A stretch of DNA of 64,000 nt, from NCBI GenBank assembly GCA_033439255.1, contig CM065884.1, positions 310,001 through 374,000 on the forward strand, given 5' to 3'. Position numbers and translations under genes: made by a program. Shown here piece after piece: positions 19,841 to 64,000 of the stretch. The notes below the pieces were generated by a model. That model saw nothing but the letters and a program-made list of their open reading frames with translations. It was not told where the DNA came from and did no database searches. Origin of the DNA: Hericium rajendrae. Taxonomy: Eukaryota; Basidiomycota; Agaricomycetes; Russulales; Hericiaceae. Numbering within the stretch: position 1 is the stretch's first letter; each line of letters opens with the position of its first letter.

Positions 19841-20790
19841 ATGGCAGAAACCACGGCCACCATCGACTTCACCTATAACGGCGAGACGTTCCAGACGTGG
19901 TACAAAGTCGTCGGTGACCTCAAGTCCGCCCGCCCGCTCGTCACGCTGCATGGCAGGCCCGGCATCCCGCACGACTACCTGCTCCCCCACGCCGAACTTG
20001 CTACCGCGCGCGGCATCCCCGTGCTCTTCTACGACCAGATCGGAACCGGGCGCTCGACGCACCTCCGGGACAAGCCTGCATCGTTCTGGACAGTCGAGCT
20101 GTTCGTCGCGGAGCTGCAGAACGTGCTCGCGCACTTCGGCATTGGGGGAGATTTCGACCTCCTCGGGCACTCGTGGGGAGGCATGCTCGCGGCAGAGTAC
20201 GCGATCCGTGTGCAGCCGGCGGGGATGCGGCACCTCATTTTGACGGATAGCTTGGCGTCGATGGAGCTGTGGGAGGTGAGCGTGAACAAGCTTTTCAAGC
20301 AGCTTCCGGAGGATCTGCAGGAGACCCTGAGAAATCACGAGGAGGAGGGGACGACGGAGTCGAAGGAGTATCAGGAGGGCATGATGGTCTTTTACGGGAA
20401 ACATGTGTGCAGGGTCCAACCGTGGCCTCAGGTACTGCAGGATGCGTTCGAGAGCATGGCTAAGGATCCAACGGTCTATTATACCATGTGCGTTCTACTG
20501 TCGGATTAAGGCAATGCACTGCTAACAGGTCTCATAGGCTGGGACCGTCTGAATTCAACATCACCGGCACCCTGAAGACATGGAGTGTCCTGGACAAGTT
20601 GCATACCGTCAAATATTCGACGCTCGTGATAAACGGCGTATCCGACGAGGCGCAGGATGAATGCGTCCGACCTCTCTTCGAGCGCATCCCAAAGGTGAAG
20701 TGGGTCCAGTTCGCGGAAAGCAGCCATATGCCATTCTTCGAAGAGAAGGAGAGGTATCTGAGCGTTGTAGAGGACTTCTTGAAACTATAG
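19841..20790 (+). CDS. Proline iminopeptidase-like alpha/beta hydrolase (peptidase S33 type), paralogue A
   Basis: A predicted 299-residue cytosolic alpha/beta hydrolase. Two exons; intron 20488-20537 (GTGCGT donor) leaves 900 nt in frame. The nucleophile elbow GHSWGGMLAAEY carries the catalytic Ser. LVINGVSDEAQD should hold the acid residue, and ESSHMPFFEEKERY the catalytic His. The family's oxyanion motif HGGPG reads HGRPG here (LVTLHGRPGIPHDYLLPHA), while the decayed paralogue at 55.1-55.7 kb keeps HGGPG. Fungal members release N-terminal proline or act as amino-acid amidases; the substrate is unknown. It is next to a DUF6593 gene and a pRiA4b-ORF3/MYND gene, a grouping that recurs at 50-56 kb. 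The start is supported by the TATA box. Confidence 0.85.
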
Positions 20791-21053
20791 GTGCTGTCAT
20801 GGGCGCATCTGATGTGACTGGTAAACGAGTTCGATTTCGACTGTGTCCTCCTAGTTCCATGGTGCGATATCAGCCATCGGTGCAGGCCTCGTTTCGAAGT
20901 GGCCATCGACTTTGGAGCTCATCAGACTAACGCATCAATTGCTAGAGAATATAAAGCAGGTCATACATGCACAGGTAACAGCCATGCGACAAGGAAACCT
21001 AGTTCGAGCGGTATACAGTCACTTCGCACAGTTCCATTCGCTGCTCCCTACAA

Positions 21054-21707
21054 TCAAGACGCGCCCTGTCCACCGGCTCTGTATGTAGCCGACTTGATCA
21101 CACCCTGCCGCGACTGCCTCTGTTTCTCCACGTACACGAACGAGGTCACGATGTCGTCGAGGATCGGCAGACCCCCGTCCGCGATCTCGATGTACCCGGG
21201 ATGTTTCTTACTGAGAATGCCCAGGGAGCGCACGTGGTATTCGGCGATGCGGAGGCCAGTGCTCCTGGAGGGGTCAAGCTGCATGCGTCCGGAACGGGTG
21301 AGCAGCGGACAGGGCGGCACGCGGCACGACGTACCTTCAGGCCGTTGCGTCCCTCTTTCCACACGTAGAACTCGCCGTTGGACGCGAAAAACTCGCGCTT
21401 TCTCAGTCTGCTGGCGATCAGTGGGCCGTCGCGTCGCAGGAGCAGAAGGCACGTACAGGGAGAAGATGCCTGTGCGGTGCAGATGTACTTTGGCGTCCAC
21501 CGTCTCGCCCTGCTGCTGGAGCCCGTCCGCCGAAAACGTGTTCCAGTCGAACTGGGCGATGTCCTGACGTGTCTCGTCCTCCAGCCGCGAGATGGTGGTC
21601 CGTCCGCCGAATACAGTGGACGGTGTGTCGATCTGATAGAGTACGCGGCCTTCATCGTCCTTCAAGAGGGTATTGAGATAGTCGTTCTCAGTGAGCGTGA
21701 GGATCAT
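21054..21707 (-). CDS. DUF6593 family protein, paralogue A
   Basis: A predicted 182-residue protein of the Agaricomycete DUF6593 family, function unknown. Three exons; introns 21408-21456 (GTACGT donor) and 21279-21334 (GTACGT donor) give exactly 549 nt. Family signatures in order are MILTLTENDYLNTLLKDDEG, YQIDTP, RTTISRLE, AQFDWNTF, REFFASNGEFYVWKEG and GLPILDDIVTSFVYVEKQR. There is no signal peptide or membrane segment. The ATG of MILTL was chosen because an upstream in-frame ATG at 21761 lies only about 10 bp downstream of the TATA box and because the paralogue at 53.2-53.9 kb starts at the matching Met. It has two relatives in this window, each close to a pRiA4b-ORF3/MYND gene or remnant. 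Confidence 0.82.
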   Translation of the reverse strand: MILTLTENDYLNTLLKDDEGRVLYQIDTPSTVFGGRTTISRLEDETRQDIAQFDWNTFSADGLQQQGETVDAKVHLHRTGIFSLYVPSAPATRRPTDRQQTEKARVFRVQRRVLRVERGTQRPEGTSCRVPPCPLLTRSGRMQLDPSRSTGLRIAEYHVRSLGILSKKHPGYIEIADGGLPILDDIVTSFVYVEKQRQSRQGVIKSATYRAGGQGAS

Positions 21708-21767
21708 GGTGGGTGGCTGCGATGGGTGGAGTAGGGATGTTCTGGTCGACGGTGGTTTCATAGCCAG

Positions 21768-22649: not shown

Positions 22650-24835
22650 CTACCGCTTCGATGCCTTACATTGCCCGCGGTGTCCGCGAGTCCAGTGTTC
22701 CTGTGAAACAAATCAGCATTCAGCCGCCGATAGAACGAGCATATCACCTTCTGGCACTCCTTCCCGCAGTACAAAGGCTTATGGCACCGCGAGCACCTGC
22801 ATCTCCCAAACTCAGCAGCAGACCATACATACACAACATAAAAAGCACCCACCCCGCCAAATTATGCGGCGACCCGCAATTCCAGCAGCACCCGCTCGTC
22901 TTCTTGTCCCGCTTCGTCGTCGTCACCTCCTCCATGTAGCGGCGCGGCGGCGCCTCTGCGCCCTCCTCCGCATCCCACGTGCGCTCCAGCACCTGGCCCT
23001 TCTTCAACTTGCCCGGCGGCCGCGCGCCGTCCCGCTCATCAGGGTCTATGACATGCACGATCGACTTCGCGCCCGCCGTCACGGAGTCGGGGCTCGCCAG
23101 CGCGGTGCGGACACGCGCACGGGCCGCCGCGAGGTCGAAGTCGTCCGGGTCGAAGGCGGCGCCGATGCTCACGTCCTTGTAATTCATGGCCTTGCGGATC
23201 TCCGCGAGCACCTCGGCGCGCTTGCGCGGCGGGCCGGACGCGAGGGCTGCGATGTCTTCGGCCCAGACGTTGTTGCCGCTGCCGTCTTCGCGCGGGCAGG
23301 CGCCGGCGCCGTCGAGGATGGTGACTTTGTGGGTACTCTCAGAGGGTGAGGCAATTTCTTCTACCTGGACAATACATGAGTCGTCAGATTAACGGCGCTG
23401 ACAATGGCACTCACCGTGATTATGTGGGTCCAGTTGTCGCCGTCTAGAAGCGTCGTGATGCAGTCAGCCACTGACCAGGTAAAGCATGGTAGAACTCACA
23501 ATCGTAAAGCCAGATCATTTCCTCCCCTTCAGCTTGAAGGAGGTGAGCCAGCGTCCAAACACCGTCCTCGCCTTTCTCGGGAACGGCACCATAACCAATC
23601 TGATTAGAAATATGATCCATCAGGTATCATTCAAAAAACGTGCGCGCATAAGCTTACCGATTGTTTGTGTGTCATATCGACAGATTTACACTCCTGCGTA
23701 ATGGCTTGAGTACGGTGACAAAAATTAAACAATGTGAACGGACTGTGTCTGCATAGACGGCGCCATCTTTGTACACTGTGAACGCGTGTGCATGATAGTT
23801 CCTTGTCCTAGACAATACGCCTTCAAGATCCATTAATAAAAATCATAACGGCAATTCAACTGACCATCCCATCAGCGGTGTCAGTACTTTATCGGACAGA
23901 GCTGCGATTGACAGCCCACCGGAGACGCGAAACTGCCTCCAGATCTGGGCGGGAAAGTCAATAGGTCATACAGTGTAACAGGTATGAGAGATTTACCCTG
24001 TCATTGCCTGCGTTATCTTTGATTTGGCTGCATCGTTCTGTGGTCAACATGGCGCGACGGGGCTGGATGGTATCAAATGAAAAGAGAACTCACTCGAGCC
24101 TGATTTTGAGCGTATAGTCCCTTTGCTGCAGATCTCCGAGATCCATGCTCCACAACTTCTCGATCTGCAGGATATTGTCGCTATGAATTCATGGAAAGTG
24201 GAAAGGCAAAAATTCGCCGCACCTGCAACTCCACCAGGCGGTTGACGAACTGTTCTTCGGGACTACCGCCGTACATATCATAACCGCCATTCGCGTAAGG
24301 GAGATACATATTTCCTGCCATCTGCGCAAGAGCACCCGCAGAGATGCAGACTTAGTACGTATTATATGATTCCTGACCTGCTCATGGAGGACGCACCTTA
24401 CGCTGCATCATTTGGTCCATGTCTCCGTAGTCCACATAGCCCGCGTAAGGAGAATCCTCAGGGTAGTTCTGCGCCAATAAGACATAAGATAAAACCCGGT
24501 AGTACAGCTAGATACGTACGGGTTGGACGCCCCACCAGATTGTCCTGCCTAACCAGTCCTTGTGCGGCTGGAACGTATCCGGATCTGCGTTGGCTCAGTC
24601 CGCGAGAAATTTACCGAAATTGTAAAACAAAAACCATACGCGTCAAAAAGGCTTCCGGATATATGTCGTCGTCGTCGTCGGGATGGAAGCGAACATATGC
24701 GGCCCTTGTAGAAGCTCTCATGTGTAGACCACGACCTGAGGAACTTTGGTTCTCCTGCCCGCCGATCCCGTTTCGCAATCCGCCGCGCAAGCCTGTTAGA
24801 AGCTGCATAAAATCGTCCGCAGGCGACGCCGACAT
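22650..24835 (-). CDS. pRiA4b ORF-3-like domain protein with C-terminal MYND zinc finger, paralogue A
   Basis: A many-exon gene that reads intact. The start ATG (MSASPADDFMQLL) is followed by AAYVRFHPDDDDDIYPEAFL, then PDTFQPHKDWLGRTIWWGVQ, YPEDSPYAGYVDYGDMDQMM and SPEEQFVNRLVELQ. The plasmid pRiA4b ORF-3-like domain follows: DLGDLQQRDYTLKIRLE, IWRQFRVSGGLSIAALSDKV, NYHAHAFTVYKDGAVYADTV and the hallmark LDGAGACPRED. After SMNYKD-type and LERTWDA motifs comes a MYND finger, TSGCCWNCGSPHNLAG / CSRCHKPLYCGKECQK / EHWTRGHRGQCK, split by two introns. The stop is at 22650-22652. pRiA4b ORF-3 domains come from bacterial and plasmid proteins of unknown function, and MYND fingers bind proteins. Two relatives lie at 50.9-52.9 and 62-64 kb. 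Confidence 0.82.
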
Positions 24836-32588: not shown

Positions 32589-35500
32589 TCACTGCAGCCC
32601 ACAACACGCCTTCACCTTCAACCACACCTTCTCGAACACGCTCAGCCGCGCGTGCTCCTCTGCGGTCCATATCCGCCCGCCCTGCCGCCGCACCGCCAGC
32701 GTGTACTCGCGATCAGGCTCGCCCGGCGCCGGCACGGGGTACCACCACTTGAGCACACTCCCTTCAAGCTCCCAGCGCCCCTCCGAGACATGCACGTCCA
32801 CCGCGAGCCCGCGCGGCGGGAGCACGGTGTTGGCGATCCCAGGCGGATACCCTACAGCGAGCGTGTCGCTCGAGCGGCGCGCGTGCGCCGCCGCCTCCTC
32901 CTTCTCCTGCTCCGCCGGCGGCGCCGCGAGCAGCGCGCCGACCGTCGCGTCCGACGCATAGTGCACGACGGGCAGGAACACCTCCGTCGCGGGGAACGCG
33001 TCCTTCCCATGCGTCGTCTCGGAGCCCGCACTCTCCGGCGTCCGGGTCCGCGGCGCCACTGGCGCGTCCTGCGCGCGCACGCGCACCTTGAGCTTGAACT
33101 CGGCGCTGTCCGCGTCGAACTGGATGTCCGCCGCGCGCCCGACGACCGCGGCGGGGTACGGCCGGCTGAACGCCCGCGCGGCGCGCGCGCCGTCCGTGAG
33201 GAAGTCGTATGCGCTCTCCCAGCGCTCCGCGTCCGTGATCTCAGGGCGGGGCGCGTCGTCGGCCGTGGGCGACAGCGACGCGACCGAGACCGAGACCGCC
33301 GATGGCGCGCGCCGCGCGTCCTTGTTGTTGTGCGCGCGCAGCAGCGCCGCGGACGACTTGTCCGCGAGGGGGTGGCCTGCGTAGACCTCCGCGCCGCGCG
33401 GGCGCAGGTCGTCCGGGCTCCACACGCTCAGGTCCTCCATGTTCCACCCATCGCCCCACGGATGCGTGTGGTCGGGGCAGTACGTCCAGATCGCGTAGTT
33501 GAGCGCGTTCGGCCCGTCCGCGGCGTTGAGCGACGCGTCGAGCGCACGCTGCTGCCGGCTGTAGTCGCCCTTGTGCTTCCCGCCGTGCGTCCACCCGTAC
33601 GCGCGCCGCTGGTCCATGTCGTACGGGACGCCGATCTCGCCGATGATCGTCGGGTACGCGCCGAGGATCTCCGCATCCGCCTTGAGCTCGCCGAGCTGCT
33701 CGCGCAGCGACTTGCGGATCGCCCGCTCGCCGATCTTCACCGCCTGCAGCTGCGAGCGGTACTTGCCCCGCAGCAGCCCCAGCGCGTCCGCGTTGAACCA
33801 GTTCCAGTGCCGCGTCACGAGCGTCAGCCCGTCATAGTAGTGCGTCGAGTAGCAGCACCGCCCGCGCAGGTCCGCCTCCTCCAGTGGCGGCGGCTGCGCG
33901 AACACCGGCGGCGCGACGAACAGGATCGCCTCGGGGTGCGCCGCCCGCACGCGTGCCGCGTACGCCTGCCAGTGCGGGCGCCAGAAGTCCGCGATGAACG
34001 CCACGTCGCGCGGCTCCTCGTCGCACCCGTCCTCCAGCGGCAGCATCTTGAAGTAGTCCGGCCGCATCACGTACCCCGTCTCGACGTCCCACACGCCGTG
34101 CTGCGCCCAGATGCACTCGCCCAGCGCCCACCCGGGATCGCGCCGCCAGCCGTAACGCGGGTGCACCCCGCCCGGCTCCCCCACCGCGTCCGCCCACATC
34201 TTGCGGCCCTTCGGGTCGACCGTCACCGACCCCGCGCGCCTCGGCCCGAACTGCCCAAACGCCCAGTTCTCCACCGTCTGCGCCTGGCCCATCCCCAGCC
34301 GCAGCGACTGCGCCGGCGTCGGCGCCGTCCCCTTCTTCAGCGTCGAGCCCTGCTCCGTCGGCAGCACGTTCAGGTCCGCGCACCCGATCAGGCCCTCCGC
34401 CGGCTCGTTCATGCTGTCCCACCCGACCACGCACGCGTCCAGCAGCCCGCCCGCCGCGCGCAGCCGGTCCGCGAGCTGCCCGAACGCCTCGACGAAGTGC
34501 GACTGCAGGTAGTCCTGGATGTTCTGCCCGTCGAGGATGCATTTCGGCGCGTACGCGCGCCCGGCGAAGAAGAACGTCAGCAGCGTCTGCGACGCGAGCC
34601 GCCCGTAGTTCGTCGACCACTGCATCGCCGGCAGCGACGCCGGGTCCGGCTGCGCCGTCGACGGGTACTCGCAGTGCAGGATCGCCGTTTGCGTGGCCGT
34701 GAAGTTGCGCGGGTTGATTCCGCACGCGGGCAGCGTCCAGTACGGCGCGCCCGACCCGCCCGAGAAGCGCGACCACTGAGGCTATCAGCACGGGTGACTT
34801 GAAAGTTGCGAGAGACTCACGATGTCCTGGTGGGGGTCAATAAACACTTTAAACCCGTATTCTTTGCATTTCCGAAGCATGCGGATGGTGTAGTCCATGA
34901 ATTCGTAGTCGTACTTTCCCCTGCAGACACATGAGCACCGACTCGCACAGCACTTGGGGCATTAGTCAATAGAGAGATTTCGCAACGGCCAGAATGGAAT
35001 GCTCCCATTCAAACCCCATGCTCCAATGGTCGCTTTTATGCGGGGGAGCCTAGGGTTAGATGGCTCCACCATTCCATTCAAGATTCCATTCCGGCGAGTG
35101 CGAAAACTCTCTAATTTCAGCCTTGCTATTAGAGAGTTTTCGCAAGAGCCGGAATGGAATGAGCCCATTCAAACCCTATGCTCCAACAGTCGCTTTTACG
35201 CGGGGCATCCTAGGGTAACACGGGTCCAAGATTCCATTCAAGATTCCATTCCGGAGAATGCAAAAACTCTCTAATGCAAAAACTCTCTATTACGTCGCCA
35301 AAGTAAGTTTGCGCCAACAAATATCAGCCAACCCTTTGTCCGCAGACAAAGAGTTGGCTGAAATTGATTGGCACAAACTGACTTCGGTGACATAACAGCC
35401 AGGCCAAGATCCATCAATGCAAACACTCACGGGCCAGCGTGCTCCAGCGACTCCCACGTAATCGGATACCGCAAGACGTTGAACCCCCATCCACGCAGCC

Positions 35501-35876: not shown

Positions 35877-35956
35877 CGCAATAGACTCCGTTAGCGCCTG
35901 CTATCCCCGGGGCAGATCGACAGTACAGGAATGCAAGGTGTTCTGCCCTCGACGCT

Positions 35957-47705: not shown

Positions 47706-49851
47706 TCACCTTGGGACTGTAGAGTTGAAAACAACCAAGTCGCACTCCCTTGCGGCTGTAGAGTAAAAAACGACCAAGTCGTACTTACGAAGGAGCCCTC
47801 TGTGTGCTGTAGATACTAAGAAAACGACTAAGTTAAACAGTTGCCCTCGGTGCCAAATGCTGTTAAGATGCAATGATGATGGAAAGACTCGCGAGCATAC
47901 AAGGGCATCGAAGCGATCTACGCGATCTACAAACGCGTCCTCAATTCGAAGCCCGTTGTCCCCGCCCTCCTCGAACGCGCGCTGCTGCCGGCTGTAGTCG
48001 CCCTTGTGTTTCCCGCCGTGCGTCCACCCGTACGCGCGCCGCTGGTCCATGTCGTACGGCACGCCGATCTCGCCGATAATCGTCGGGTATGCGCCGAGGA
48101 TCTCCGCGTCCGCCTTGAGCTCGCCCAGCTGCTCCCGCAGCGACTTGCGGATCGCCCGCTCCCCGATCTTCACCGCCTGCAGCTGCGAGCGGTACTTCCC
48201 GCGCAGCAGCCCCAGCGCGTCCGCGTTGAACCAGTTCCAGTGCCGTGTCACGAGCGTCAGCCCGTCGTAGTAGTGCGTCGAGTAGCAGCACCGCCCGCGC
48301 AGGTCCGCCTCCTCCAGCGGCGGCGGCTGCGCGAACACGGGCGGCGCGACGAACAGGATCGCCTCGGGGTGCGCCGCCCGCACGCGCGCCGCGTACGCTT
48401 GCCAGTGCGGGCGCCAGAAGTCCGCGATGAACGCCACGTCGCGCGGCTCCTCGTCGCACCCGTCCTCCAGCGGCAGCATCTTGAAGTAGTCCGGCCGCAT
48501 CACGTACCCCGTCTCGACGTCCCACACGCCGTGCTGCGCCCAGATGCACTCGCCCAGCGCCCACCCGGGATCGCGCCGCCAGCCGTAACGCGGGTGCACC
48601 CCGCCCGGCTCCCCCACCGCGTCCGCCCACATCTTGCGGCCCTTCGGGTCGACCGTCACCGACCCCGCGCGCCTCGGCCCGAACTGCCCAAACGCCCAGT
48701 TCTCCACCGTCTGCGCCTGGCCCATCCCCAGCCGCAGCGACTGCGCCGGCGTCGGCGCCGTGCCCTTCTTCAGCGTCGAGCCCTGCTCCGTCGGCAGCAC
48801 CCTCAGGTCCGCGCACCCGATCAGGCCCTCCGCCGGCTCGTTCATGCTGTCCCACCCGACCACGCACGCGTCCAGCAGCCCGCCCGCCGCGCGCAGCCGG
48901 TCCGCGAGCTGCCCGAACGCCTCGACGAAGTGCGACTGCAGGTAGTCCTGGATGTTCTGCCCGTCGAGGATGCATTTCGGCGCGTACGCGCGCCCGGCGA
49001 AGAAGAACGTCAGCAGCGTCTGCGACGCGAGCCGCCCGTAGTTCGTCGACCACTGCATCGCCGGCAGCGACGCCGGGTCCGGCTGCGCCGTCGACGGGTA
49101 CTCGCAGTGCAGGATCGCCGTTTGCGTGGCCGTGAAGTTGCGCGGGTTGATCCCGCACGCGGGCAGCGTCCAGTACGGCGCGCCCGAGCCGCCCGAAAAG
49201 CGCGACCACTGAAGACGTGAACACGCGTGCATTGAAATGATGGGGACGCGACACTCACGATGTCCTGATGCGGGTCAATAAAGACTTTAAAGCCGTACTC
49301 TTTGCATTTTCGAAGCACGCGGATGGTGTAGTCCATGAATTCGTAGTCGTACTTCCCCCTGCAGACATATGAGCACCGACTTGCACGGACGACGCAAACA
49401 CTCACGGGCCAGCGTGCTCCAGCGACTCCCACGTAATCGGATACCGCAAGACGTTGAAGCCCCATCCACGCAGCCTCGCGAGATGCAGATCGGCCGACCC
49501 GTCGTCCAGATTCAGCGGCCGCCCCAAGAACGTCTTGCCCTCGCCCTCTGCATCTTCCCAGAAGCCATCGAGGATGTACGACGGCTCGCCCACAGGGGCT
49601 TTCGCGGATCCGGCGAGGTTGATGCCTCTCAGCAGCAGCGTGCGTCCGCTGGTGTCCACAAAATTGCCGTCGATCGTGTGTATGAAATCTGGCGGCGTGG
49701 GGTTCCCCGTTGCGGGGGAAACGGAGGGTACCCGCGGCATCGTGTGCGGGGGTTTGTTTTGTGGTGGTGGTGGTATGAAAGAAAGCGGGGTTGTGTGGGG
49801 GGAAGCGCGTCGTACGACTCTTGGGTTGACATCACAATATTGGCGCGTCAT
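47706..49851 (-). CDS. Chimeric, 3'-truncated GH5_12 copy with a new C-terminus
   Basis: The duplicate of the 32.6-35.9 kb gene. Three exons (49406-49851, 49259-49358, 47706-49208) give an open 2049 nt, 682 residues. Introns are 47 and 50 bp. All catalytic motifs (DSMNEPAEG, IIGEIGVPYD) are kept and nearly identical to the full copy. After SRQQRA the sequence leaves homology and continues for 89 unrelated residues (FEEGGDNGLRIEDAF ...) containing three DLVVFxSTA-like repeats. The last barrel strands (NYAIWTYCPDHTHPWG) and the whole C-terminal beta domain are lost, so the protein is probably misfolded or inactive. The open frame, promoter and TATA-like word are retained, so expression is possible. 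Confidence 0.75.
47715..47840 (-). repeat. Three short tandem repeats encoding the new C-terminus
   Basis: The plus-strand word ctgtagag...aaacgaccaagtcg occurs three times with variation at about 47718, 47754 and 47809. On the minus strand it encodes NLVVFLVSTA, DLVVFYSTA and DLVVFNST at the end of the chimeric GH5 frame. Confidence 0.75.
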
Positions 49852-50230
49852 CGCAATAGACTCCGTTAGCGCCTGCTATCCCCGAGGCAGAGATAAAGGA
49901 ACGGGTGACAAGGTAGAGTATTACAGAAGTCCGGGGCAGGATTTTCTGTCATCGACGCTCTATATAGCACGATGAACATCGCCGTCATCTCAGTCTGTTC
50001 TCGTCTCATAGGTCCAGGTTGGACCGGCCGAGCCAAGTACTTTCAACAGGATCGCATCGCCGGATCTCTCGGAATGAAGTTGAACACACAACGGCCATTA
50101 CACAACGGAGGGCTATAGTTCAGGCCTAAATGAGAATCGATGGCGAAAGGGGAACGCGACTTCCGCGAGTTCTTTATAGTGGACAATAAGTAACTTAGCA
50201 CTGCGTCCGTACGACTTTCCCGCGGCCCTG
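47970..50230 (-). repeat. Segmental duplication, right copy (GH5_12 locus)
   Basis: A direct copy of about 33540-36212. The left break is at the SRQQRA codons (cgcgctgctgccggctgtag) and the right break just after gactttcccgcggccc. Small indels in the leader before MPRVPSV are whole codons. Confidence 0.88.
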
Positions 50231-50929: not shown

Positions 50930-52860
50930 GAAAAGCAGATCCGGACGTGTTCCAGCTGCCAGGATTGGTTAGGATGGGCCGTGCGTGCGTGTCTACATAA
51001 ACCACGGCTTGTCGCTTAGGCGGAGCCTTACGTCTGACATGGACACCTCGTGAACTCACCTTAAAGTGCCCGCTACGTAGATAGCGGTCAGGCGGGCGAT
51101 TCTGATGGACCAAGGCTGCGATCTGTCTATTTTATCATTAGGAAAAGACGTTGAAGAGATAGTACAGCATAAGGTATGTCCCCGAATTATTAGCGACCGT
51201 AACCTCATTCTGAATCCCCGCCGCTCTGTCATGTCTTGCCCAGATCTCGGGAAACATGTATCCTCCTTTCATGTTGAATGGCATGCCAATTTACATCGAA
51301 CAGCAGCCCCTCAGCCATGCAGTGGAGTTGCAGATGCGATTTATCTTGACTTTCTAACGACGATTGAGGGACGCCGTCCCGCAGATCGAGAAGTTGTCGA
51401 AGACGGATCTTGGAGACCTGCAGCAGAGAGACTATACGCTCAGGATCGGCCTGGAGTGAGCCCTCTCATTCATTAAACCGCGTGTTTGCATGGCGTCGTA
51501 TTAATGATAGAACCGTCCAGCCATATGAAAGACACCGCAGGCAATGACAGGGTGATATGCTCACCTACATGGTGTCGTTGAACTTATTAATCTTTCTCGT
51601 AGATCTGGAAACAATTCCGCATCTCAGGCAGGCTGTCAATCGCAGCTCTGTCCGATAAAGTATTGACGCTGCTCATGGGATGGTCAGTGTGATTGGCGGC
51701 AGCACCTTGATGGCTTGACCTTTGATGCACATAGACCAGGACGAGGAACTATCATGCGCACACATTCACGGTGCACAAAGACGGCGCCGTCTATGCAGAC
51801 ACAGTCCGTCCTTCCTTTCATCTGGCTTCAATGAGCGCTCAGGCCACATTTCAGGAGTCTCAATCTGTCGACCACATGACGTTCGGATGCTTGGTCGGTG
51901 CATGCATGCTTGTCTCAAGGCTTGTCTCCATTATAATAATGGTTCCTGACGAAAGACGTATCCAGTCAGACGTTGTGCGATTGTGCGGTTCCCGAGAAAA
52001 GCGATCACGGTGTCCGGACACTGGCCCATCTCCTGCAAACAGAAGGAGAGGCAATCCGCTGGCTCTACGATCGTAAGGCTGACCCTGGCACATCAGACCG
52101 TCCGTTTCGGCTGACCACATCCCGATGCTCGTAGTGTGTGACAACTGGAGCCACACCATCACGGTAAGTCTTATTCACCTTACCATCCATCAATGGCCTC
52201 ATCCACCTTCAGGTCGAACAAATCGCCCCAGCCGCCTCGAGCACGCACCAAGTCGCCGTCCTCGACGGCGCCGGCGCCTGCCCGCGCGAAGACAGCAGCG
52301 GCCCCTGCATGTGGGCCCACGACATGCGGCATGCCAGCCGTGCGCGCCGCGGTACTCGCGCTCATCCGTGGCGCAATGAACTACCGGGACCAACTCGTCA
52401 TAGACTTCGACACGGACGCGTTTGACTTCAGCGCGGCCCGCGGACGCGTGCACGCCGCGTTTGCGAGTTCGGACTCCGTGTCCGCTGGCGCCAAGTCGAT
52501 GCTGTACGCGCTGCACCCCGACGTGCTGGATGGCCTGCATCCGCGCGGCTTTCCGGACGTGCTGAAGAGGGGGCAAGTGCTGCAGGGGACGTAGGACGGG
52601 GACAGGGCTGCGGCGCCGAGCAGGTTTATGGAGGAGATCACGACGACCAGGCGCGACAAGAAGGCTGGAGGGTGCTGCTGGAAGTGCGGGTCGCTGCATA
52701 ACTTGGCTGGGTAGGTTCTTGTGCTTTTCGCTGGTGCTGTTATGCTTAGAGGCGTGGTGTGCAGGTGTGCCCGACGCCGCAAGTCTTTGTATTGCGGGAA
52801 GGCGTGTCAGCGAGTATGCGCTCTCGGTTCTGCCGCATGCTAACGCTGACATTCAATATA
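50930..52860 (+). pseudogene. Decayed pRiA4b ORF-3/MYND gene, paralogue B
   Basis: Recognisable exon remnants occur in order: DPDVFQLPG near 50940, IEKLSKTDLGDLQQRDYTL near 51390, IWKQFRISGRLSIAALSDKV near 51605, RNYHAHTFTVHKDGAVYADT near 51745, TLAHLLQTEGEAIRWLYD near 52020, AVLDGAGACPRED near 52260 and ITTTRRDKKAGGCCWKCGS near 52640. An in-frame stop (TAG 52592-52594) replaces the Trp of the family's RTWDG motif. No initiator ATG matching the other copies was found. The second half of the MYND finger has lost Cys residues. It is a non-viral host gene relic next to an intact DUF6593 gene. Confidence 0.8.
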
Positions 52861-53182
52861 GCCGCATTGAAAGAATGGACATCGCCAGCAATGCAAGGCA
52901 GCCAAGCAGTAGTCGGAGGTGTATTTTCGGTCCTCTGATCCCACATGGCAATTTATCAAGCGCTGTTGCTGTCGATTTGGGCGCGTCAGGGCCTTCAAAG
53001 TTACTAGTGCACGAATAGATGTCAGTTTCAATGATGAAGAGTCCGTTTCAAGATGAATTGCGTTACTATCGTCAAACAAGGTCAAGTAGGTGTTTCTCGG
53101 ACAGGTAAGGGTCCATGGCAATATGAAACGTACGTCCAGAACACAGTATACCGATAGCTGGTCTACACTGGATCTCACGCGC

Positions 53183-53855
53183 TCAACAGGTAGCCCCAGC
53201 TGACGCACTGGCATTGGCAGCAGCTGATGCGTTACTGCGCTTCCGTTGTTGCCTCTTCTTCTCCATGTACACGAACGAGGCCACGATGTCGTCCAGGATC
53301 GGCACGCCGTCGGCCGCGACCTCGAGGTACGCGGGGTGGCCCTTGCTGAAGAAGCCCAGCGAGCGCGTGTGGTACTCGGCGACGCGGGAGCGTGCGGCGT
53401 CTTGGCAGTCGAGCTGCCATTGATGCAAGCGACAGGTAAGCAGGACAGGTTGTAGCGGGACAAGGTGGGTCCGCGGTCCGACTTGCCTTCACGCCGTGAC
53501 TTCCGTCCTTCCACACGTAGGATTGGCCGTCAGATGCGAGCAGCACGCGCTTCCTACTCTCGGTGAGCACAACATGGTGTCGCGGAAGTGAAGGCACGCA
53601 CGTCCCGAAGAAGCCCTTGTGGGGCAGATGCTGGCTCGCCTCCACCGTTCTACCGTCCTGGTGGAACTCGTCCGGCGAAAACCTGTTCCACTCTATCCAC
53701 GCAATGTCGTGGTCTGTCTGCCCCGTCAGGCGTGTGATAGTCGTCCGTCCGCTGCCGAAGAGGCGGTACGGCGTGTCGATGCGGTAGAGCGCGTGGCCAC
53801 GCTCGTCTTTGAGGACGGTGTTGAGGTAGTTTTCTCCAAAGAGCGTGAGGATCAT
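53183..53855 (-). CDS. DUF6593 family protein, paralogue B
   Basis: A predicted 183-residue protein with the same three-exon structure and phases as paralogue A (552 nt). Introns are 53554-53601 (GTGCGT donor, TAG acceptor) and 53414-53486, the latter with a GC donor (AAG|GCAAGT), whereas paralogue A has GT at the same place. Motifs: MILTLFGENYLNTVLKDERG, YRIDTP, RTTITRL, AWIEWNRF, KRVLLASDGQSYVWKDG and GVPILDDIVASFVYMEKKR. The tail is Ala/Ser-rich. The Met of MILTLF was chosen because the in-frame ATG at 53927 lies upstream of the TATA box. It appears intact although both neighbours, the pRiA4b-ORF3/MYND and hydrolase copies, are dead. Function unknown. Confidence 0.82.
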
Positions 53856-53940: not shown

Positions 53941-54428
53941 ACGAGTTGGAGCTAAGTAGGAAAGCTGTTAAGCAAATGGGCAGACATCGAGGCTTGAAGG
54001 CATCACCTGAAAGCACGGAAGGCGCTGCGATGGGGAGGCTTAGCGTGCATGATATGATGCGACATAGCCCTGCCTCCAGCTCGTGGTATTCCGACATCCA
54101 TATCGTTGAATTCTCTAAACCAATGAAGAAATGCAGTCATGATACCGGTATCTGGACGCAGCACTGCCAAGATAGTTGTGATTTATTACTATGGTCTGAT
54201 GAGCTCCACATTGGGCGGCTACTCTTCGAGGTCTACACCGCCCATTGATGTCGCTACACAGGGGAGCTGCCAGAAGGAAAATTACGTGGACAAGGCGAGC
54301 GGGAGTGTCAGCGTCAGCGGCGTGGTGGTCAGCAGCGTCAATGGGGCTATCGAGATCAAGTTTGTTTGCCTGAATATACACCATGTCAGGCGTGCTCGTG
54401 AGATGTCGTCGATGGGCCTACTATAGTT

Positions 54429-55666
54429 TCATATAGTCTCCAAGAACGCTGAAGTACCTGTCCTTCCCTTCGAAAAGGGCGTGTGGCTGCTTGTTGTCAA
54501 CTGAACCCATATAACCTTCGAGACGTTTTCGAGGGACGGGTGCACGCATTCATCTTGTGCTTCGTTGTATGCGCTGCCCATCACGAGGGTCGGACACTTG
54601 ATTGTGTCCACGACGTTCCACGTCTTGAGCACCCTGGTGATGCTGAAATCGGATGGCCCTTTTTTATAGCGAAGTCAACCGGGCACGGGCTGGATAAAAT
54701 AGAAATGTACATGGTAGTAAGGCAGGCGAAATGCAAAAGCGACCATCATCACATGATCCGTGACACAGTGTGACCTCCCCTACAACGCTGTCGCTGCCGC
54801 GACAAGGCTGCGCGGATTTCCGCCTTGCTCGACATCGTTTTTCTTATTCCTCAGGCTATAATCAACTTCTGCTTATTCTAAGAACATCAAAATGTATATA
54901 AAATCATGTACTCTAAATTGATGTTTTCGAATTTTCATCGTAAGATCTGTAAATGACAGAATACCAGCTACACTACGAAAGTAACGCTTTACCGCAAAGC
55001 TTCATGTTTTGCTCACGTGATGATGGTCGCTTTTGCATTTCGCCTGCCTTATAGACCGTCGGTCCTCGGTCATGAGTGCAAAAGCATCCTGCAGATCTTG
55101 CGGCCATGGGTCAAGCCTGCAGACATGCTTCCGGTAGGAAACCAGTAGGAAACCGCCATGCGTCCTGATACTCCTTGGAGTCCATCGTTCCGTCCTCCTC
55201 GCGCTTCCGCAGCGTCTCCTGCCGATCTACCGGAAGCTATTTGAACAGCTTGTGCACGTTCACCTCCCACAGTTCCATCGATGCTAGGCTGTCTGTCACG
55301 ATGAGGTGCTTCAGTCCCTTCGGCCGCACGCGGATCGTGCCCAAGCAGGTCAAAATCGCGCTCGATGCCGAAGTGCGTGAGCAGATTCTCGAGCTCCGCG
55401 ACGAAGAGCTCGACGGTCCAGAATGTAGCAGACTTGTCGCGGAGGTGCATCGAGTGACCGATGCCGACCTGGTCGTAGAAGATGACAGGGATGCCGCGCA
55501 CAGTAGCAAGCTCTGCGTGTGGAAGCACGTAGTTGTGTGGGATGCCCGGTCCACCATGCAGCGTAACGAGGGGACACGCGGACATGAGATCGCCGACGAC
55601 TTTGTACCAAGTCTTGAATGTCTCGCCGTTGTACGTGAAGTCGATGCTTCCTGAGGTTTCCGTCAT
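54429..55666 (-). pseudogene. Decayed proline iminopeptidase-like hydrolase, paralogue B
   Basis: Homologous to the intact gene at 19.8-20.8 kb. The first exon starts MTETSGSIDFTYNGETFKTW and keeps LVTLHGGPGIPHNYVLPHA and IPVIFYDQVGIGHSMHLRD. The nucleophile elbow is lost: LLGHSWGGMLAAEYAIR in the intact gene is LLGH followed directly by DP, through a deletion of about 30 nt and a frame change. A 330-bp MITE (54720-55049) interrupts the end of exon 1. The second exon (54429-54632) survives as TWNVVDTIKCPTLVMGSAYN, then EAQDECVHPSLENVSKVIWV. It cannot encode an active enzyme. Confidence 0.85.
54720..55049. mobile_element. 330-bp MITE with 38-bp terminal inverted repeats and TA target site
   Basis: Left end AGGCAGGCGAAATGCAAAAG continues CGACCATCATCACATGA. 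The right end is the exact inverse except for one base (CACGTGA). TA lies directly outside both ends, as in Tc1/mariner-type elements. The interior is AT-rich and non-coding. The nearly perfect ends suggest recent insertion. It sits in the hydrolase pseudogene. Confidence 0.85.
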
Positions 55667-56247
55667 GGTGGAGTTGGAAGAAATTGTCAGCTATGACAGC
55701 GATGGCAGAAGGTAGAGAGGGTCGCTGGTCAACCTGATGTTAATAGTTGAATCTACGAGTACTTTCTGGGTTAGCTTCGATCCAGCCTGTATAGTCCGAT
55801 CCAGCCGGTATGCGTGCGTAGTCTTGGTACGGAGACGAGCGTCCTTATTTCCTAGGAGATTAGTTGCTGCCCAGAATGTCGCCACACCGAGATACAGAAG
55901 TTACCGAGAATAACTGCATAGACAAGGCTGGCCAGCCAGCACCGGTATAAGTCCTTTATGAGCAGAGGAGAGCAAATGTAAGTTACAATTTTCGAGGAGG
56001 TTGGGAGGAGGACGCAGGCGCCTAACTATAACCCGAATATGGAGATAACAGGGTCACATGACGGAGTGTGACACTAAGCGCGTCGCGTCTGTCACGTTGA
56101 GCATCACTCCTCTTCTCCCACTCCTCCGAGCTTCAAGAGCACCAGTGCAGACCACGACGTACTCAAGGTGTGGCCCACGTTTTTTCACTGTGATGTGCTT
56201 CTGAGCTGATGTCTCTTTCAATATAGGATAAGGTATACCGTGTTTAG
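55667..56247. other. Intergenic region, possibly holding the first RAP1 exons
   Basis: About 580 bp between the hydrolase relic and the first exon I can fit for the Rap1-like gene. Its 5' exon(s) and promoter should lie here. A candidate ATG frame (MTECDTKRVASVTLS) begins near 56058 but was not confirmed by any domain. Confidence 0.35.
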
Positions 56248-59200
56248 GGTGCCCGCCATTGGTCGATAGCACCTGGACGCGATTCCAGCAGTCGACAAGC
56301 CAAGATCCGCCGCATTACGCATCTTACCATGTAACGCATCATCATGATCAGGAAATTTGGTCTCACTGACTTGAGTACAGGTTGAATGCATATACGAAAG
56401 AAGACGATGAACGCCTTCTCAGATACATCGCGACGTACAATCCCGAACGAACTGGCAGATCAGGCAACAAGTTGTACCAGGACCTCGTGGCACAGGTGCG
56501 TACTCTGCAGTCTCTTTGGATTTGAGTTGCAAACTAATCACGTCCTTACGCATAGCACAAGCGATGGCCATGGTCTAAACGACACCCGTGGAGCTCCTGG
56601 CGCGAGCGATATGTGAAGCATAACAAGGAGTTCGACAAGAAGATTAGTGACTGGCAAAAGGCACATGCGGATAGGCCGGGAACACTCACTAATTTGAAAA
56701 AGTCCAGCCAACGTGAGAAGCCATCGATGACTGCTTGTCCTCCGGCAGCGAAGACATCGAAGGGCACATCAAGTACAGGTGGCCCTCGGCCTGTTAAAGC
56801 GACAATCAACGATAACGGAAAGCGAGGACGATCGTCTATCGGGCAAAGCACTTCTCAGAGTCTCAAGCGACCTCGACTGCAAACCACGGCGTCCGAACAG
56901 AATGAGGAGAGCGCTATTCGTCCAGCTGTCGTAAAGAAGAAGCCCTCTCCAACCACGACGGCGAGTAAAGGCAAGGGAAAGGCTCGGCCAGTGCCTGACA
57001 GCGAGACGGAACCGGAATCCGAAGGTCCCGCGGGCCCGGATGACTATAATTATAAGGGCCAGGTGTTCGAAAAGGAGGAGGAAGAGGAGGAAGAGAATCC
57101 CCCACAAGAGATGGAGACAGACGGGGAGGCAGCTGAAACTCCCGCGAGAAGTCAGTCTATCTGGAATGATGTTCCCCGCGGGTGAGTTTATCATGATCAG
57201 CTTCTGGAAGAATCATAAGGCTGACGGTTTACTCTTATACAATAAGCTCTAAATCTCCAGAACCTATCGCGGATTCTCGTCCAGTATCCCCGACAATAGC
57301 AGCTCCCCTTGCGGCAGTATCGGAAATCCCAGTAATAGCCGCAACTCCGCTGCGAGCCCACGTATCAACTGCACAGGCGAATCGTCCCATAACTCCTAAA
57401 CCAGACGGCGATCAAGAACTCCACATTTCACAGGAGCCAACACCGCCCAGATCTGGCGTAAGCGAGACCCCTCAAGGCTCCTCTGCAAGCTCACCCAACG
57501 GTCGACTAGAACCGAATACGTCCTATTCACAGCACAGTGTCGAACGATTGCGGATCACTGAGCTAACGAGCGTGGGCCTCGAGCATCTTCATACCATATC
57601 TGTTCATGGCTCCTCTTCTCCTGTTACCGAGAGGCCGACTATACCCGCCCCCCGCCGTCGTACATTTTTCAAGGTGAGACAGATTGAGCCGGAGGATATC
57701 TTCGAGACGGCCTCGTCGAATGGGAGTCCCGCTGCCGCCCCGCCACGAAAACAGCGCGAGCCTCCGCGACTTATTGAAGGACCATATGTTAGTTCCTTTG
57801 CAGACAGCTCAGGAGCTTCGCGCCTTACGTCTGGAGGGCGGCGAACAAACGGTGCAGTTGATCAATCGGACGAGAGCGAATCTGAGGCGGACGAACGCCC
57901 GCCAGATCCGAACTGGCCTCCGCGACGCGGATCCATGAAGGGTGCCACTCATGCTAAGCCGGCTATCACGGAGACCAGTCCGAAGACGATAATAGCAGCA
58001 GATTCAACAGCAGTATCTCGCGTGTCAAGCCGCTCGAAAGACGGGACATCTGTTCAACGAGTTCCTGCCGTGCCAGCTATGAAACATGTTTTGGAGAAGC
58101 GCCCTGCGCGCGCCATCTTTCCTCGCCCTCCTCAGGTCAATGCAGAGGCGTCATCTTCCAAAGTCAAGCTCCCGGGGCTAAATAAACCTGCTACACGCGC
58201 CAGTCCAACGAGTACTGCGTATGGCACAGGCGAACCTGTGAAGCTCCCTCGGACTGCCGCCTCCAAGCCCTCCGCCGCCGCACGCGTCCCCCGCGCGTCC
58301 AGCCTAGCCCGAACAAAAGACCCCTTCTCCAAGGACTTCATCCGCACGGATACCGAATCAGACGGCTCGGCGAAAGCGGCCGTCGAGAAGGGCAAGACTA
58401 AAGCCAAGCTGATGATTGACCGCCGGCAGACCTTCTCCGGCGTACCCCCGCATGCCGCCGTCCCGCACCTTGACCTCGCGAATGAAGTGCGCAAGCGCGA
58501 GCATCAGCGCTCCAATGGCCGCCAGTCTGCACCGCTGATCGATCTGCGTGCGCGACGCGCGTCGTCGGCTACGTCCCGGTCCAGCACCAGCGCGTCCGAC
58601 GAAGCCCGCAGGCCCCGCCGCAACTCGACTCCATCCGCATTCTCCCTCGACCAGGGTTCGCGACGAGCATCATCCACCGCGTCCGTTGCACCTACCACCG
58701 CGTCCGTTGCATCTACCGCAGACGCGGACATGCGCCGCCTCTCCGCAGCGCCGCACGACATGCAGCTCGCAGTGCAGGAGAGCCTCGAGGGCGTGCTGCA
58801 GCGCCTCGCGCAGAACCACGGGTTCAGCGAGGCGGTCGCGCGGCGGATCTGGGAGCGTGTGGGTGACTTCCGGAGGACGGACGAGACGCTGCGGATGATG
58901 CGAGAGCGGGCGCAGGAGGCGCTCGATCAGTTATTGGGCGGTGAGCTTGAAGATGAGGAGGATGAAGCTGAGGAGGATGAGGCTGAGGAGGACGAGGACG
59001 AGGAGGATCAAGAAGAGGACGACCAGGAGCAGGAAGAAGAGCAGGACGCCGAGGCCGAGGAGGAAGCGGATGTCGCGATGCTCGTGAACCCAAGCCGCTC
59101 CGCCTCCGACCGCTCCGCCTCCCCTGCGCCTCGCGCACCCGCCCTGCACGTATCAATCCCACGCGCCTCCGTCTCGCCCGTGCGCGCTTCGAATGGCTTC

Positions 59201-60367
59201 GAATACACACCCTTCCTGGAGCCCGAGCCACGCCCCGCGCACTACTCGCCGGCGTCGCCGACGCGCGCAAGGCAGTATACCCGGCTCGTCAAAGCGGGGC
59301 GCGCGGAGGAGGCGCGGCTGCGCGAGATAAGGCGGGCGAGTCGGGGGTATATTATGGGGACTACAGAGGCGGGTGCACAGGGTGGTGACCATACGGAGGA
59401 GGTGGAGGGCGCTCTGGAGGATGGGGATGTCGAGATGTATGAAGATGAGGCGGAGGGGGATGGATGGGATGCAGAGAATGCCGCACTTGTGCTCGAGGAG
59501 CAGGAGCGGGAGGAGCGAGAACGAGAGGAGAGGGAGGAGCGGGAGCGGGCTGCTGCCGAGCAAGAGAGACTGCGGCGAGAGATGGAAAAGGCGGCGGAGC
59601 GGAGGGCCGAGAAGGCGCGGAGAGCGCAGGAACGCAGGGCCGCGGCTGAAGAGCGGCGACTTCGGGAGGAGGCAGAGCAGAGGGAGAGGGCGGAAAGCGA
59701 GCAGAGGCAGCGGTTGGAGAGGGGGCGATTGGAGAGAGCGCAAATGGAGCAGGAGCGATTGGAACGCGCGCGAGTGGAGCGGGAGCGGATGGAACGAGAG
59801 CGGGTGGAGAGGGCACAAAGGGAGAGGGAGCAGAAAGAGCGGATGGAACGAGAACGATTGGAGCAGGAACACAGAGAGCGGGTGGAACAGGAGCGGGCGG
59901 AGATGGAGCAGAGAGAACGAATCCAAAGGGCTCAGCAGGAGCGGGAGGAAGCCCAACGACGAGAAAGAGAAGAAGAGCAAGAGGTCGCAGAGTCAACGGC
60001 CAATGTCGAACCCTCATACGAGGAGATGGACCTGTATCCTGAAGCCGACATCCACGAAGCTGGGGTACAGTCGCCGACTCACGAGCAGTACTTTGGCGAC
60101 GAAGACTCTGACGGCGACGCCGGGGAGAAGGAAGACTATCTGCCCGGCCCTCTGCGCCCTTCGTCTCCGTTGGTCCAGGAAAGCCAGCGATCAGGAGGGC
60201 CACAACAAGGTCACGATGGGACGCCTGAGCCCCGGTGGACGGAGGAAGACTATTTCACGCTCTTTAATGGCGATGCAACGGAGCTTCGCGCCCTGGCGGA
60301 GAGAGTAGGGCCGCGTTCCATTAAGTGGCAGATCGCGGATGCTTATGCTGAGCTGGTGGGGAATTGA
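56248..60367 (+). CDS. RAP1: Rap1-like telomere protein (BRCT remnant, Myb domain, long coiled coil)
   Basis: A shelterin/telomere-capping type protein. A Myb domain typical of Rap1 starts YTKEDDERLLRYIATYNPER and continues TGRSGNKLYQDLVAQ, HKRWPWSKRHPWSSWRERYV. Upstream, an exon near 56248-56330 may encode the end of a BRCT domain (PPLVDSTWTRFQQS). Introns 56496-56555 and 57182-57246 are in frame. The 3.1-kb last exon encodes a disordered Ser/Pro/Arg region, an acidic block (EEDEAEEDEAEEDEDEEDQE), a long Glu/Arg coiled coil (RERAAAEQERLRREMEKAAE type) and a C-terminal RWTEEDYFTLFNGDATELRA motif ending AYAELVGN, probably the Rap1 C-terminal domain. The N-terminus and first exons are unresolved. 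The coiled coil is unusually long. Confidence 0.75.
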
Positions 60368-60544: not shown

Positions 60545-61286
60545 TTACACTGTAAGTCCATGTCTTGCAGGAGGTATCTCGAAATACGGCTCCTCTACAC
60601 GGCCAGCCCAACTCGCCGCCGCAACTGCCGCTTCAGTCTCGTTCTGCTTCTGCCTCCTCTCCATGCACACGAACGTAACGACAATCTCGTCCAGGATCGC
60701 CAGACCGTGCGATGAGACTTCGAGATGTGGGGCCGTCTTTTGGAGAACACGCCCGAGTGGGGGTGATGCTGTGCAACATGAGTCTTCGAACGGTCGTCAC
60801 GCTTGAGCTGGGCCATTACATCTTAGGTGAGTAGGGAAAGAGTGGAATGAGAAATCTTATTTACCTTGAGACCGCGCCATCCCGTCCGCCATACGTACGA
60901 ACGACCATCTGTCGCGACGAACGCGCGTTTCCTATCAAGAGACATGAGCCACAAGGTCCGCCGAACAGGATATTCATGCCTACGTGCGACCTCATGCAGC
61001 CCTTTCTAGGCATGTATCTGCCGAGTTTGACCGTCTGCCCTCTGAGATGGAACTTGATGGACCCGTAATAATGCCATTCGATCTGGGCGGCATCTTGCGC
61101 TCCCCAGCCCGAGATCCTCGAAATGATGGTCCGCCCTCGGCTCAATAGATGGGATGGGGTGCGTATCTCGTACATTGCTCGGCCGTCGTCATCCTTGAGA
61201 ATGGTGTTGAGCAGGCCAGGCCACCGTGCGAGAGCGAGAGATTCATTGCGTGTGGATGTCGGGATGTGGAACGTTATGGGATGCAA
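60545..61286 (-). pseudogene. DUF6593 family gene, paralogue C, with a frame change in the last exon
   Basis: It keeps the three-exon structure and phases of paralogues A and B: exon 1 60991-61286, exon 2 60865-60931, exon 3 from 60807. Motifs are PGLLNTILKDDDGRAMYEIR, RTIISRISGW, AQIEWHYY, KRAFVATDGRSYVWRTG and VAQHHPHSGVFSKRRPH. In the last exon, after SKRRP, the conserved end (LEVSSHGLAILDEIVVTFVC, then MERRQKQNE) lies in another frame. The frame in use instead runs to a stop at about 60595, giving 191 residues with an unrelated tail. It is either a young pseudogene or a variant lacking the final beta strands. It is divergent from the neighbouring pRiA4b-ORF3/MYND gene. Confidence 0.7.
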
Positions 61287-61992
61287 TTACTGAGCGGTGA
61301 TTCACGACCTTTTATGCGTCCAGCTTCAGCGCTTTTAATTGCGCTCATGCGAGAAATGAATCGCGAGAAAGAAAGCTGTGGAGCGGGTAGGTCGACATCA
61401 TGGCTTGGGTCACAGCGTAAATGAGCCCATCAGCTGCGCAAGACGCGTCGCGACGCGCCCGACGCGGTCACGTGGGGATATTGGCCCTGCGGTGCTGCTG
61501 TGTTCTGGGGTACAGCACACTCAGTAAGCTGTAAACATGGTTCTGTTCAAATTCGATGATGGACATACGAAGAAAGACATGCTACAACGCGTTTTACTTA
61601 CCTCACGCGCAGTCTAATTTTCTGTCAGTCTTGTAAATCTTACAAAACTAACGGAGCGATGCTGTCAGTGTATGATCGTTCGTGATCACAAACGTCGCGA
61701 CGTCACTCGAGACAACTCAAGTTCTAATATGCTTCAGCTCTAGCTCTGAGATGCTGCGAGCGTTGAATAGATATGGAGTGGCCGTGGACAAATCGGGCTC
61801 GACTTCGCCTACCTGGACGCGCCGCCACTAGCGCCACCGTCGCGACGGCCATTGTCCATAACGTTCAACTCATTCAACCCTGGTATACTTGTCCTTACGC
61901 GTTTCGAACCGCTTTTATTCTACCCCGTCTTGCCTCTCCCTGACCGACAGTGCGCAACCTAGAAAAGTTTCTACTTCGAGGAACCTGCGGCC
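61287..61992. other. Divergent intergenic region
   Basis: About 0.7 kb between DUF6593 paralogue C and the pRiA4b-ORF3/MYND paralogue C, presumably with both promoters. No element matching the paralogue A/B promoter block was seen. Confidence 0.45.
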
Positions 61993-64000
61993 ATGTCGGA
62001 CTCGTCTGACGATTTTTTGTCCGGATTGCGCGGCAAACTACGCAAGGGAATGGAACTCTCGGAACCTGAAACAGGTTATGGGACGAGCGCGAGGGGAGCT
62101 TCGTCGAGTAAAGCCGCATATGTTCGATTCCATCCTGAAGACGACCGGGATTTATATCCGAAAGCCTTTTTCTCTCGTATGTCTTTCACGATCTCGGAAT
62201 TGTCTTGCATCTGAATTGTAGCAGATCCGGACATGTTCGAGCCACACAAGAACTGGTTGGGCAGTACAATTTGGTGGGGGGTTGAACCAGTGCGTGTCTG
62301 CTCTCTGGGTCTATGATCCTGGACGAGGTAGACGAAGACTTACTCGAGCAGGTTTGGCCAAAAGACTCGCCGTACGCAGGAGACGTGGACCATGGAGACA
62401 CTGAAAAGCTTATGAAGCGCAAGGTTCGTCCTGACAAGCAAGTCCACGATCTCAACATACTGACGGCCACATTATCACTTACGTACGGGTGGTCTTCTTG
62501 CGCAGATGGCAGGGAATTTGTATCATCCTTTACTGAACAAAACCTATGCAGACTATGGCGGTACTCCTGAACAACAGTTCGTCAAACGTCTGGTCGACTT
62601 ACAGGTGTGTTTCGATTTCGGGGGGTTTTATTTTTGGATATAAGCATATCCGTCCTGCAGATCGAGAAGCTGTCGCAGATGGACGTCGGCGATCTGCAAC
62701 AAAGAGACTTTACGCTCAAAATCGGGATGGAGTAAGTGTTCTGATCCGCGAACAACAGATGACCCCAGTAAATCTCATTGACTGCGTGACACTCTAGCAA
62801 TATCCCAGACAAAACTTACAATGACAGAGTACCATCATTTCTCCGTATGTCCTTGTTTGACTTCCTGACCTTTTCTCGTAGATTTGGAGACGGTTCCGCG
62901 TTTCCGGCGGTCTGTCAATCGCAGCCTTGTCCGACAAAGTGATAACGCCACTCATGGGGTGGTCAGTCCGATTGATATAAATACTCCAACCCCTTGCGTT
63001 TGACGAAGCGTCAACTAGGACTAGAAATTACCATGCGCATGCATTCACAGTTTACAAGGACGGAGCTGTCTATGGAGATTCAGTCTGTCCTCTATTTTTT
63101 TCTTGGTTTCTTCCTGAGGCTCAGATCACTTTTCAGGAGTCTACATCGATAGATGCGATGCACTTACACCGGGTAAGATACAGATTATCTTACGTTTTTC
63201 GGTTGCTCGGCTAAATGTATCGATAGTTCGGTTATGCCTTCGTTCCGGAGAAAAGTAATCGTGGTGTTTGGACGGTGGCTCACTTGCTACAAACCGAAGG
63301 CGAGGAGATGATGTGGCGCTACGACTGTAGGTTTCATCCAGTTTTTCGAAATTTCATGGGCTGTGACATGGCCTGAGCAGTTGGTGACGTCTGGGACCAT
63401 ATAATTACGGTAGCTCACCTTTTTTACTGTTGACTCCTTGAATTCACATACCCTTCAGCTAGAAGAAATTGCCCCGCTTTCCGAGAGCACAGGCAAGATC
63501 GTAGTCCTTGATGGCGCCGGTGCCTGCCCGCCCGAAGACCGCAAAGGGAATTTCCAGTGGTCCATCGACATCCTGAAGCTGCAGTCCAACAAACCGGCCT
63601 ACCGCGGCGAGGTGATCAGCCAGATCAACGGCTCCATGAACTACAAGGACAAGCCCGTCCCCGCCGACTTCGATCCGGATCAGTTCGACATCGCGGAGGC
63701 GCGGGAGCGCGTGCACGCCGCGCTCGCGAGTCCCGACTCGGCGACGACGGGCGCAAAGCAGTTCATGTATCCCCTGCATCCCACCGTGCTCGACAAGCCT
63801 GCGCCGGGGACCCCTTTTGCTCCCAAGAAGGGCCAGAAGCTGGAGCGGACGTGGGACGGGGGGCAGGGCGATGGGATGGTCGACGGCCCGCGGTTCCTGC
63901 AGGAGATGACCACTACGAAGCGAGACAAGAAGATTAGCGGCTGCTGCTGGAGCTGCGGGTGCCCACATAACTTATCTGCGTGAGTGTCTCCTGCCGTTGG
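61993..64000 (+). CDS. pRiA4b ORF-3-like domain protein with MYND finger, paralogue C (3' end outside window)
   Basis: Starts MSDSSDDFLSGLRGKLRKGM, then KAAYVRFHPEDDRDLYPKAF, PDMFEPHKNWLGSTIWWGVE, WPKDSPYAGDVDHGDTEKLM and TPEQQFVKRLVDLQ, aligning exon by exon with paralogue A. The pRiA4b ORF-3-like domain has DVGDLQQRDFTLKIGMDNIP, IWRRFRVSGGLSIAALSDKV, RNYHAHAFTVYKDGAVYGDS, FVPEKSNRGVWTVAHLLQTE and VVLDGAGACPPEDRKGNFQW. The first MYND half, ISGCCWSCGCPHNLS, is present at 63.93-63.98 kb; the rest of the finger lies past the right edge. Every exon fits GT-AG borders in frame, so the copy looks functional, in contrast to the relic at 50.9-52.9 kb. Confidence 0.82.

Follow-up and report, generated by a model that had tools for sequence, protein, structure and literature searches.

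Why do the same three unrelated genes recur side by side within one stretch of a fungal genome? The question is raised by 64,000 nucleotides of Hericium rajendrae DNA (C7:310001-374000; hereafter the window), where an initial annotation described three loci that pair a pRiA4b-ORF3/MYND gene with a DUF6593 gene, and left the choice between joint function and duplication as a block. Here, we name the copies M (pRiA4b-ORF3/MYND), D (DUF6593), and H (proline-iminopeptidase-family hydrolase), and number them 1 to 4. Coordinates above 64,000 are window-equivalent and lie on contig C7, to the right of the window. We find that the recurring module is very probably one ancestral M-D-H neighborhood that local duplication on C7, both segmental and tandem, has multiplied.

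Organization of the cluster

All copies were aligned and then spliced by hand, with GT-AG introns except for one GC-AG intron in D2. The three loci are present where they had been placed, and their domains pass Pfam cut-offs after splicing (Table 1). Two of them carry the same hydrolase beside DUF6593, as described, with H1 adjoining D1 and H2 adjoining D2. From left to right, the order is H1+ D1- M1- (19.8-24.8 kb) and M2+ D2- H2- (50.9-55.7 kb), followed by a right-hand array of D3- M3+ D4- M4+ H4- (60.6-70.9 kb). The third locus is cut by the window edge: the last two exons of M3 and a fourth set (D4, M4, and H4; 64.0-70.9 kb), all open, lie to the right of base 64,000.

The orientations first described are correct for the pairs as drawn, with M1/D1 co-directional, M2/D2 convergent, and D3/M3 divergent. 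However, all M genes between 50.9 and 70.9 kb are on the plus strand, all D and H genes are on the minus strand, and M3/D4 form another convergent pair. The differences among copies 2 to 4 thus arise because one head-to-tail array can be parsed in two ways. D1 alone is flipped relative to its own M and H, and the claim that linkage survives rearrangement was overstated. Gene order is only partly kept: copies 1 and 2 both read H-D-M, one as the mirror image of the other, and the array reads D-M-D-M-H.

Table 1. Members of the M-D-H cluster and the tandem duplication
Feature	Coordinates	Strand	Description
H1	19841..20790; exons 19841-20487 + 20538-20790	+	299 aa, intact proline-iminopeptidase-family alpha/beta hydrolase
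D1	21054..21707	-	180 aa, 3 exons, intact
M1	22650..24835	-	484 aa, 14 exons, intact; pRiA4b-ORF3 domain and C-terminal MYND finger
M2	50940..52912 (left end approximate)	+	decayed pRiA4b-ORF3/MYND copy
D2	53190..53855	-	open provided intron 2 is GC-AG
H2	54421..55669	-	decayed: in-frame stops, GHSWGG region deleted across, insertions
D3	60638..61246 (limits approximate)	-	DUF6593 pseudogene
M3	61993..64184	+	483 aa, 14 exons, intact; exons 64037-64085 and 64134-64184 outside window
D4	64988-64380	-	open, outside window
M4	65810-67997	+	open, 14 exons, 483-484 aa, outside window
H4	70901-69953	-	299 aa, two exons, open, outside window
Tandem duplication, left copy	60657..64000 in window (to 64201)	+	direct repeat of 64408-68014

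Local duplication explains the recurrence

Self-comparison of C7:260001-434000 (174 kb) reveals a tandem repeat at the right end of the cluster, where 60657-64201 matches 64408-68014 with 75% DNA identity over 3.7 alignment kb. The right copy contains D4 and M4, and H4 comes after it. Across 60.58-64.18 kb, identity per 150-column step (ungapped columns) is 63-90%, with exons, introns, and the D-M spacer included, and it drops to ~50% at either end. M1, M3, and M4 have a common plan of 14 exons, and M4 is 85% identical to M3. Four-taxon DNA trees of M and of D both recover (1,2)|(3,4) with support 100, which shows that the M and D copies are paralogs with a common history. Chance linkage is ruled out, since the copies are homologous (paralogous) DNA. 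Independent assembly of the module at each locus is set aside in view of the shared split of M and D and the lack of close relatives found elsewhere.

We propose that an ancestral block of M, D, and H was copied locally along C7, one step being the head-to-tail duplication of the 3.6-kb D-M unit that the tandem repeat records. The copies would have been produced by unequal crossing-over, and one small inversion would have flipped D1. Some members then decayed while their neighbors stayed open. Because the block shares descent, its physical linkage is sufficiently explained. Synonymous distances (dS) are alike for D1/D2 (0.57) and M3/M4 (0.59) and do not order the duplication steps. A younger split for H1/H4 than for M1/M4 (dS 0.82 versus 1.51) was considered and dropped, since the dS of M1/M3 (0.96) overlaps. 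A search for relics of M, D, and H over the same 174 kb (tblastn with M1, M3, D1, D2, D4, and H1; E ≤ 0.05) gave 70 matches, all of which fall within spans already known.

Several observations weigh against this reading. The H tree joins H2 with H4, not with H1 (ultrafast bootstrap 65; FastTree 0.777), although H2 is decayed, and H is placed differently in the array (D-M-D-M-H) than in the first copies (H-D-M). No non-coding similarity was detected between block 1 and blocks 2 to 4. The joint duplication of block 1 therefore rests on gene trees and gene order, without a continuous alignment; these trees comprise few sequences, and D evolves fast. Furthermore, every intact M (n = 3) neighbors an open D, with D4 common to M3 and M4, and this could be due to selection.

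Genome-wide distribution of the three families

The genome searched comprises 46.8 Mb in 19 contigs. The whole-genome profile and protein searches score best candidates only, and their counts are lower bounds. The DUF6593 profile (PF20236) has at least 14 matches, of which 8 belong to the four D genes of the cluster and 6 lie elsewhere. The pRiA4b-ORF3 profile (PF07929; E ≤ 1) has at least 7, four in the cluster and three at C7:1.07 Mb. The latter read as two adjacent genes (C7:1071533-1073576) that are apparently stand-alone pRiA4b-ORF3 genes, distinct from the MYND fusions; no MYND or DUF6593 match lies near them among the matches listed. With the M3 protein (E ≤ 1), 29 of at least 32 genome matches are in the cluster, and the remaining three are two MYND-only stretches (C5 and C8) and one match at E 0.127 (C4). 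All 11 listed matches of the D4 protein (E ≤ 1) are in the cluster. Thus, whole-genome protein searches give no close relative of M or D outside the cluster among the matches listed. The first-exon frame of H1 (E ≤ 1e-5) has at least 8 matches, four in the cluster (three genes) and one each on C13, C4, C9, and C5.

If the three families formed a functional module, they might be linked in independent contexts of this genome. We find that the six non-cluster DUF6593 matches all stand more than 5 kb from any listed pRiA4b-ORF3, hydrolase, or MYND match, a count of low power; the smallest distance to a listed partner is 34.7 kb, to a MYND match. In this count each gene was represented by a single start (10 of 14 DUF6593 matches, 5 of 7 PF07929, 7 of 8 hydrolase, and 40 of 40 MYND), the rows omitted being further pieces of genes already listed. 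The MYND list was taken at E ≤ 0.01 and does not contain the cluster's own fingers, which are split by introns. The chance expectation for such neighbors is ~0.06 (hand arithmetic), and the zero therefore rules out a strong association of DUF6593 with these partners, not a weak one. Within this genome, among the matches listed, the families are adjacent only in the local duplications, and the recurrence of the pair here is due to local duplication. Separately, two DUF6593 matches 0.6 kb apart at C5:2841159-2842582 are possibly another local duplication.

These data also bear on whether a mobile element captured M, D, and H and carried or multiplied the cluster. A direct repeat of 1.4 kb with 96% identity (33.5-34.9 and 48.0-49.4 kb), together with other repeats, points to recent rearrangement near copy 2. 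However, no copies of M or D were found outside the array among the matches listed, and the neighboring genes with Pfam matches are ordinary cellular ones (Ada3, OPA3, GH31, and PL14). Among 40 window open reading frames (ORFs) scanned against Pfam (245 of at least 105 aa are listed), none matches a transposase, integrase, or reverse-transcriptase family, with no search made for short terminal repeats. Sub-cut-off matches in the E ≤ 0.1 scan to GpA_ATPase (0.091, in H1) and TraI_2_C (0.073, in D1) are taken as chance. We regard a mobile element as highly improbable.

Selection and decay

The copies differ in their state of preservation much as first described. Copy 1 is intact; in copy 2, M2 and H2 are dead and D2 is open; and in copy 3, M3 is intact and D3 is frameshifted. 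The first ~130 residues of M2 have no protein match, and the exon bearing the end of its pRiA4b domain contains a frameshift and an in-frame stop. In D3, the domain frame has no ATG upstream of the domain, and the last exon has an additional frameshift, with matches in two overlapping frames. The frame of D2 is kept only if intron 2 (53413-53487) has a GC donor (GCAAGT); the 3' end of the D2 model was placed by hand, and the reading frame continues several codons beyond it.

Omega was estimated by the Nei-Gojobori method with 1000 codon bootstraps (intervals in parentheses). M is constrained, with omega of 0.14 (0.09-0.18) for M3/M4, 0.19 (0.12-0.27) for M1/M4, and 0.29 (0.21-0.38) for M1/M3, as is H, with 0.11 (0.07-0.16) for H1/H4. 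D changes faster in protein at similar synonymous distance: 0.55 (0.35-0.80) for D1/D4, 0.63 (0.44-0.91) for D1/D2, and 0.39 (0.22-0.59) for D2/D4.

This difference would be expected if M and D, perhaps with H, were a functional module, for example a recognition or conflict interaction pair, in which selection keeps the linkage while D diversifies. In blocks 1 versus 4, the omega of D does exceed those of its partners, and the open D beside every intact M gene (n = 3) fits as well. However, the omega of D stays below 1 in the three pairs compared, and its fast change fits relaxed constraint and diversification equally. The families also do not co-occur outside the cluster, within the low power of that count. 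Moreover, D2 is open although the adjoining M2 is dead, so that, provided the GC-AG intron is genuine, D can outlast its own M. An intact M3 beside a dead D3 says little, because M3 also borders the open D4. Such a module is therefore unlikely. Its more specific form would pair two genes for recognition or conflict, a conserved pRiA4b-MYND adaptor (M) and a rapidly diversifying partner (D), held together by selection during turnover of the array; this form is slightly less likely still. For the three families, there is no sign of functional dependence so far, and of the two options initially offered, it is duplication that the tandem repeat, the congruent trees of M and D, and the lack of close paralogs found elsewhere directly show.

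Predicted properties of the proteins

The spliced M1 and M3 proteins score 99.1 and 91.9 bits against PF07929 (cut-off 26.6; profile positions 3-172 and 12-172 of 173), and 33.5 and 30.2 bits against the MYND profile PF01753 (cut-off 22.7; 39 of 39 positions). Unspliced single M exons score under the PF07929 cut-off (24.3 and 25.5). These are the only Pfam families above cut-off in the two proteins, which thus have no SET domain; a Hepcidin match in M3 is sub-cut-off (E 0.016). M3 aligns over ~150 residues with 2i1s, a solved member of PF07929 and the closest solved relative of the pRiA4b domain. The finger reads CxxC, CxxC, CxxxC, HxxxC and gives matches in the Protein Data Bank (PDB) to the zf-MYND fingers of SMYD2, DEAF1, and ETO. 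Compared with the pRiA4b ORF-3-like domain, M is a 484-aa, 14-exon eukaryotic gene that adds ~160 N-terminal residues and the C-terminal finger. Two peptide patterns (45 stretches) confirmed no bacterial relative of M, although this is a weak test. Because MYND fingers bind short proline-rich motifs of partner proteins, M is most simply read as an adaptor, likely coupling the pRiA4b-ORF3 fold to partner proteins via its finger.

The D1, D2, and D4 proteins (164-181 aa) cover nearly the full PF20236 profile at 94.4, 107.6, and 113.1 bits, respectively (gathering cut-off 27). Compared with DUF6593 elsewhere in the genome, the cluster copies are a local subfamily, whose profile barely reaches the other loci (best E 0.0023). 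A Tubby/LURP-one-like barrel was considered as the fold of D; the LOR family (PF04525) has no genome match at E ≤ 1. Of two PDB sequence searches with D, one gave no match and the other BCS1 alone (E 0.13), which is not a convincing relative. The AlphaFold model, built for part of the D2 frame from a 3-row alignment, is mostly beta, and its mean pLDDT of 42.6 is too poor for a fold search. D is a small, fast-diverging, and probably all-beta protein.

H1 passes the NCBIfam model TIGR01250 (247.1 bits; cut-off 167.65), and the closest solved relatives of H are the proline iminopeptidases 7a6g (E 1.3e-84 with H1) and 3wmr. Judged by its domain, H is likely a serine aminopeptidase or amidase. H1 retains the GHSWGG motif and has HGRPG where the remaining six of six aligned sequences have HGGPG, a possible alteration of the oxyanion-hole motif.

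A title-level literature search found nothing for DUF6593, nor for pRiA4b together with MYND, and the pRiA4b literature, judged by titles, includes no fungal study.

Other features of the region

A direct repeat ~14.4 kb apart pairs 33538-34948 with 47971-49386 (96.4% identity) and 35419-36208 with 49394-50228 (87.5%). The first pair is more similar than any pair of M or D copies. Its left copy overlaps a minus-strand ORF (32592-34781) that matches Glyco_hydro_5_C in its later part, beyond the repeat. Between copies 2 and 3, 57197-60364 (plus strand) is a single 1056-aa open frame without a Pfam match, and AT skew is 0.292 at 58-60 kb. To the left of the window, C7:266607-277540 (window-equivalent -43393 to -32460) is a duplicated stretch with dense internal repeats, in which long pairs are 84-90% identical.

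Implications

In its birth-and-death pattern, with intact and dead copies intermixed, the cluster resembles fungal gene families that have expanded locally in tandem. It differs in that three unrelated genes, not one, expand together. It offers a clear fungal example of birth and death acting on a block of three genes, and the turnover is of an ordinary kind. We also show that a gene pairing that repeats within one window provides weak evidence for joint function before paralogy is removed. If the D-M linkage held across Agaricomycetes, it would provide a shared context for two uncharacterized families.

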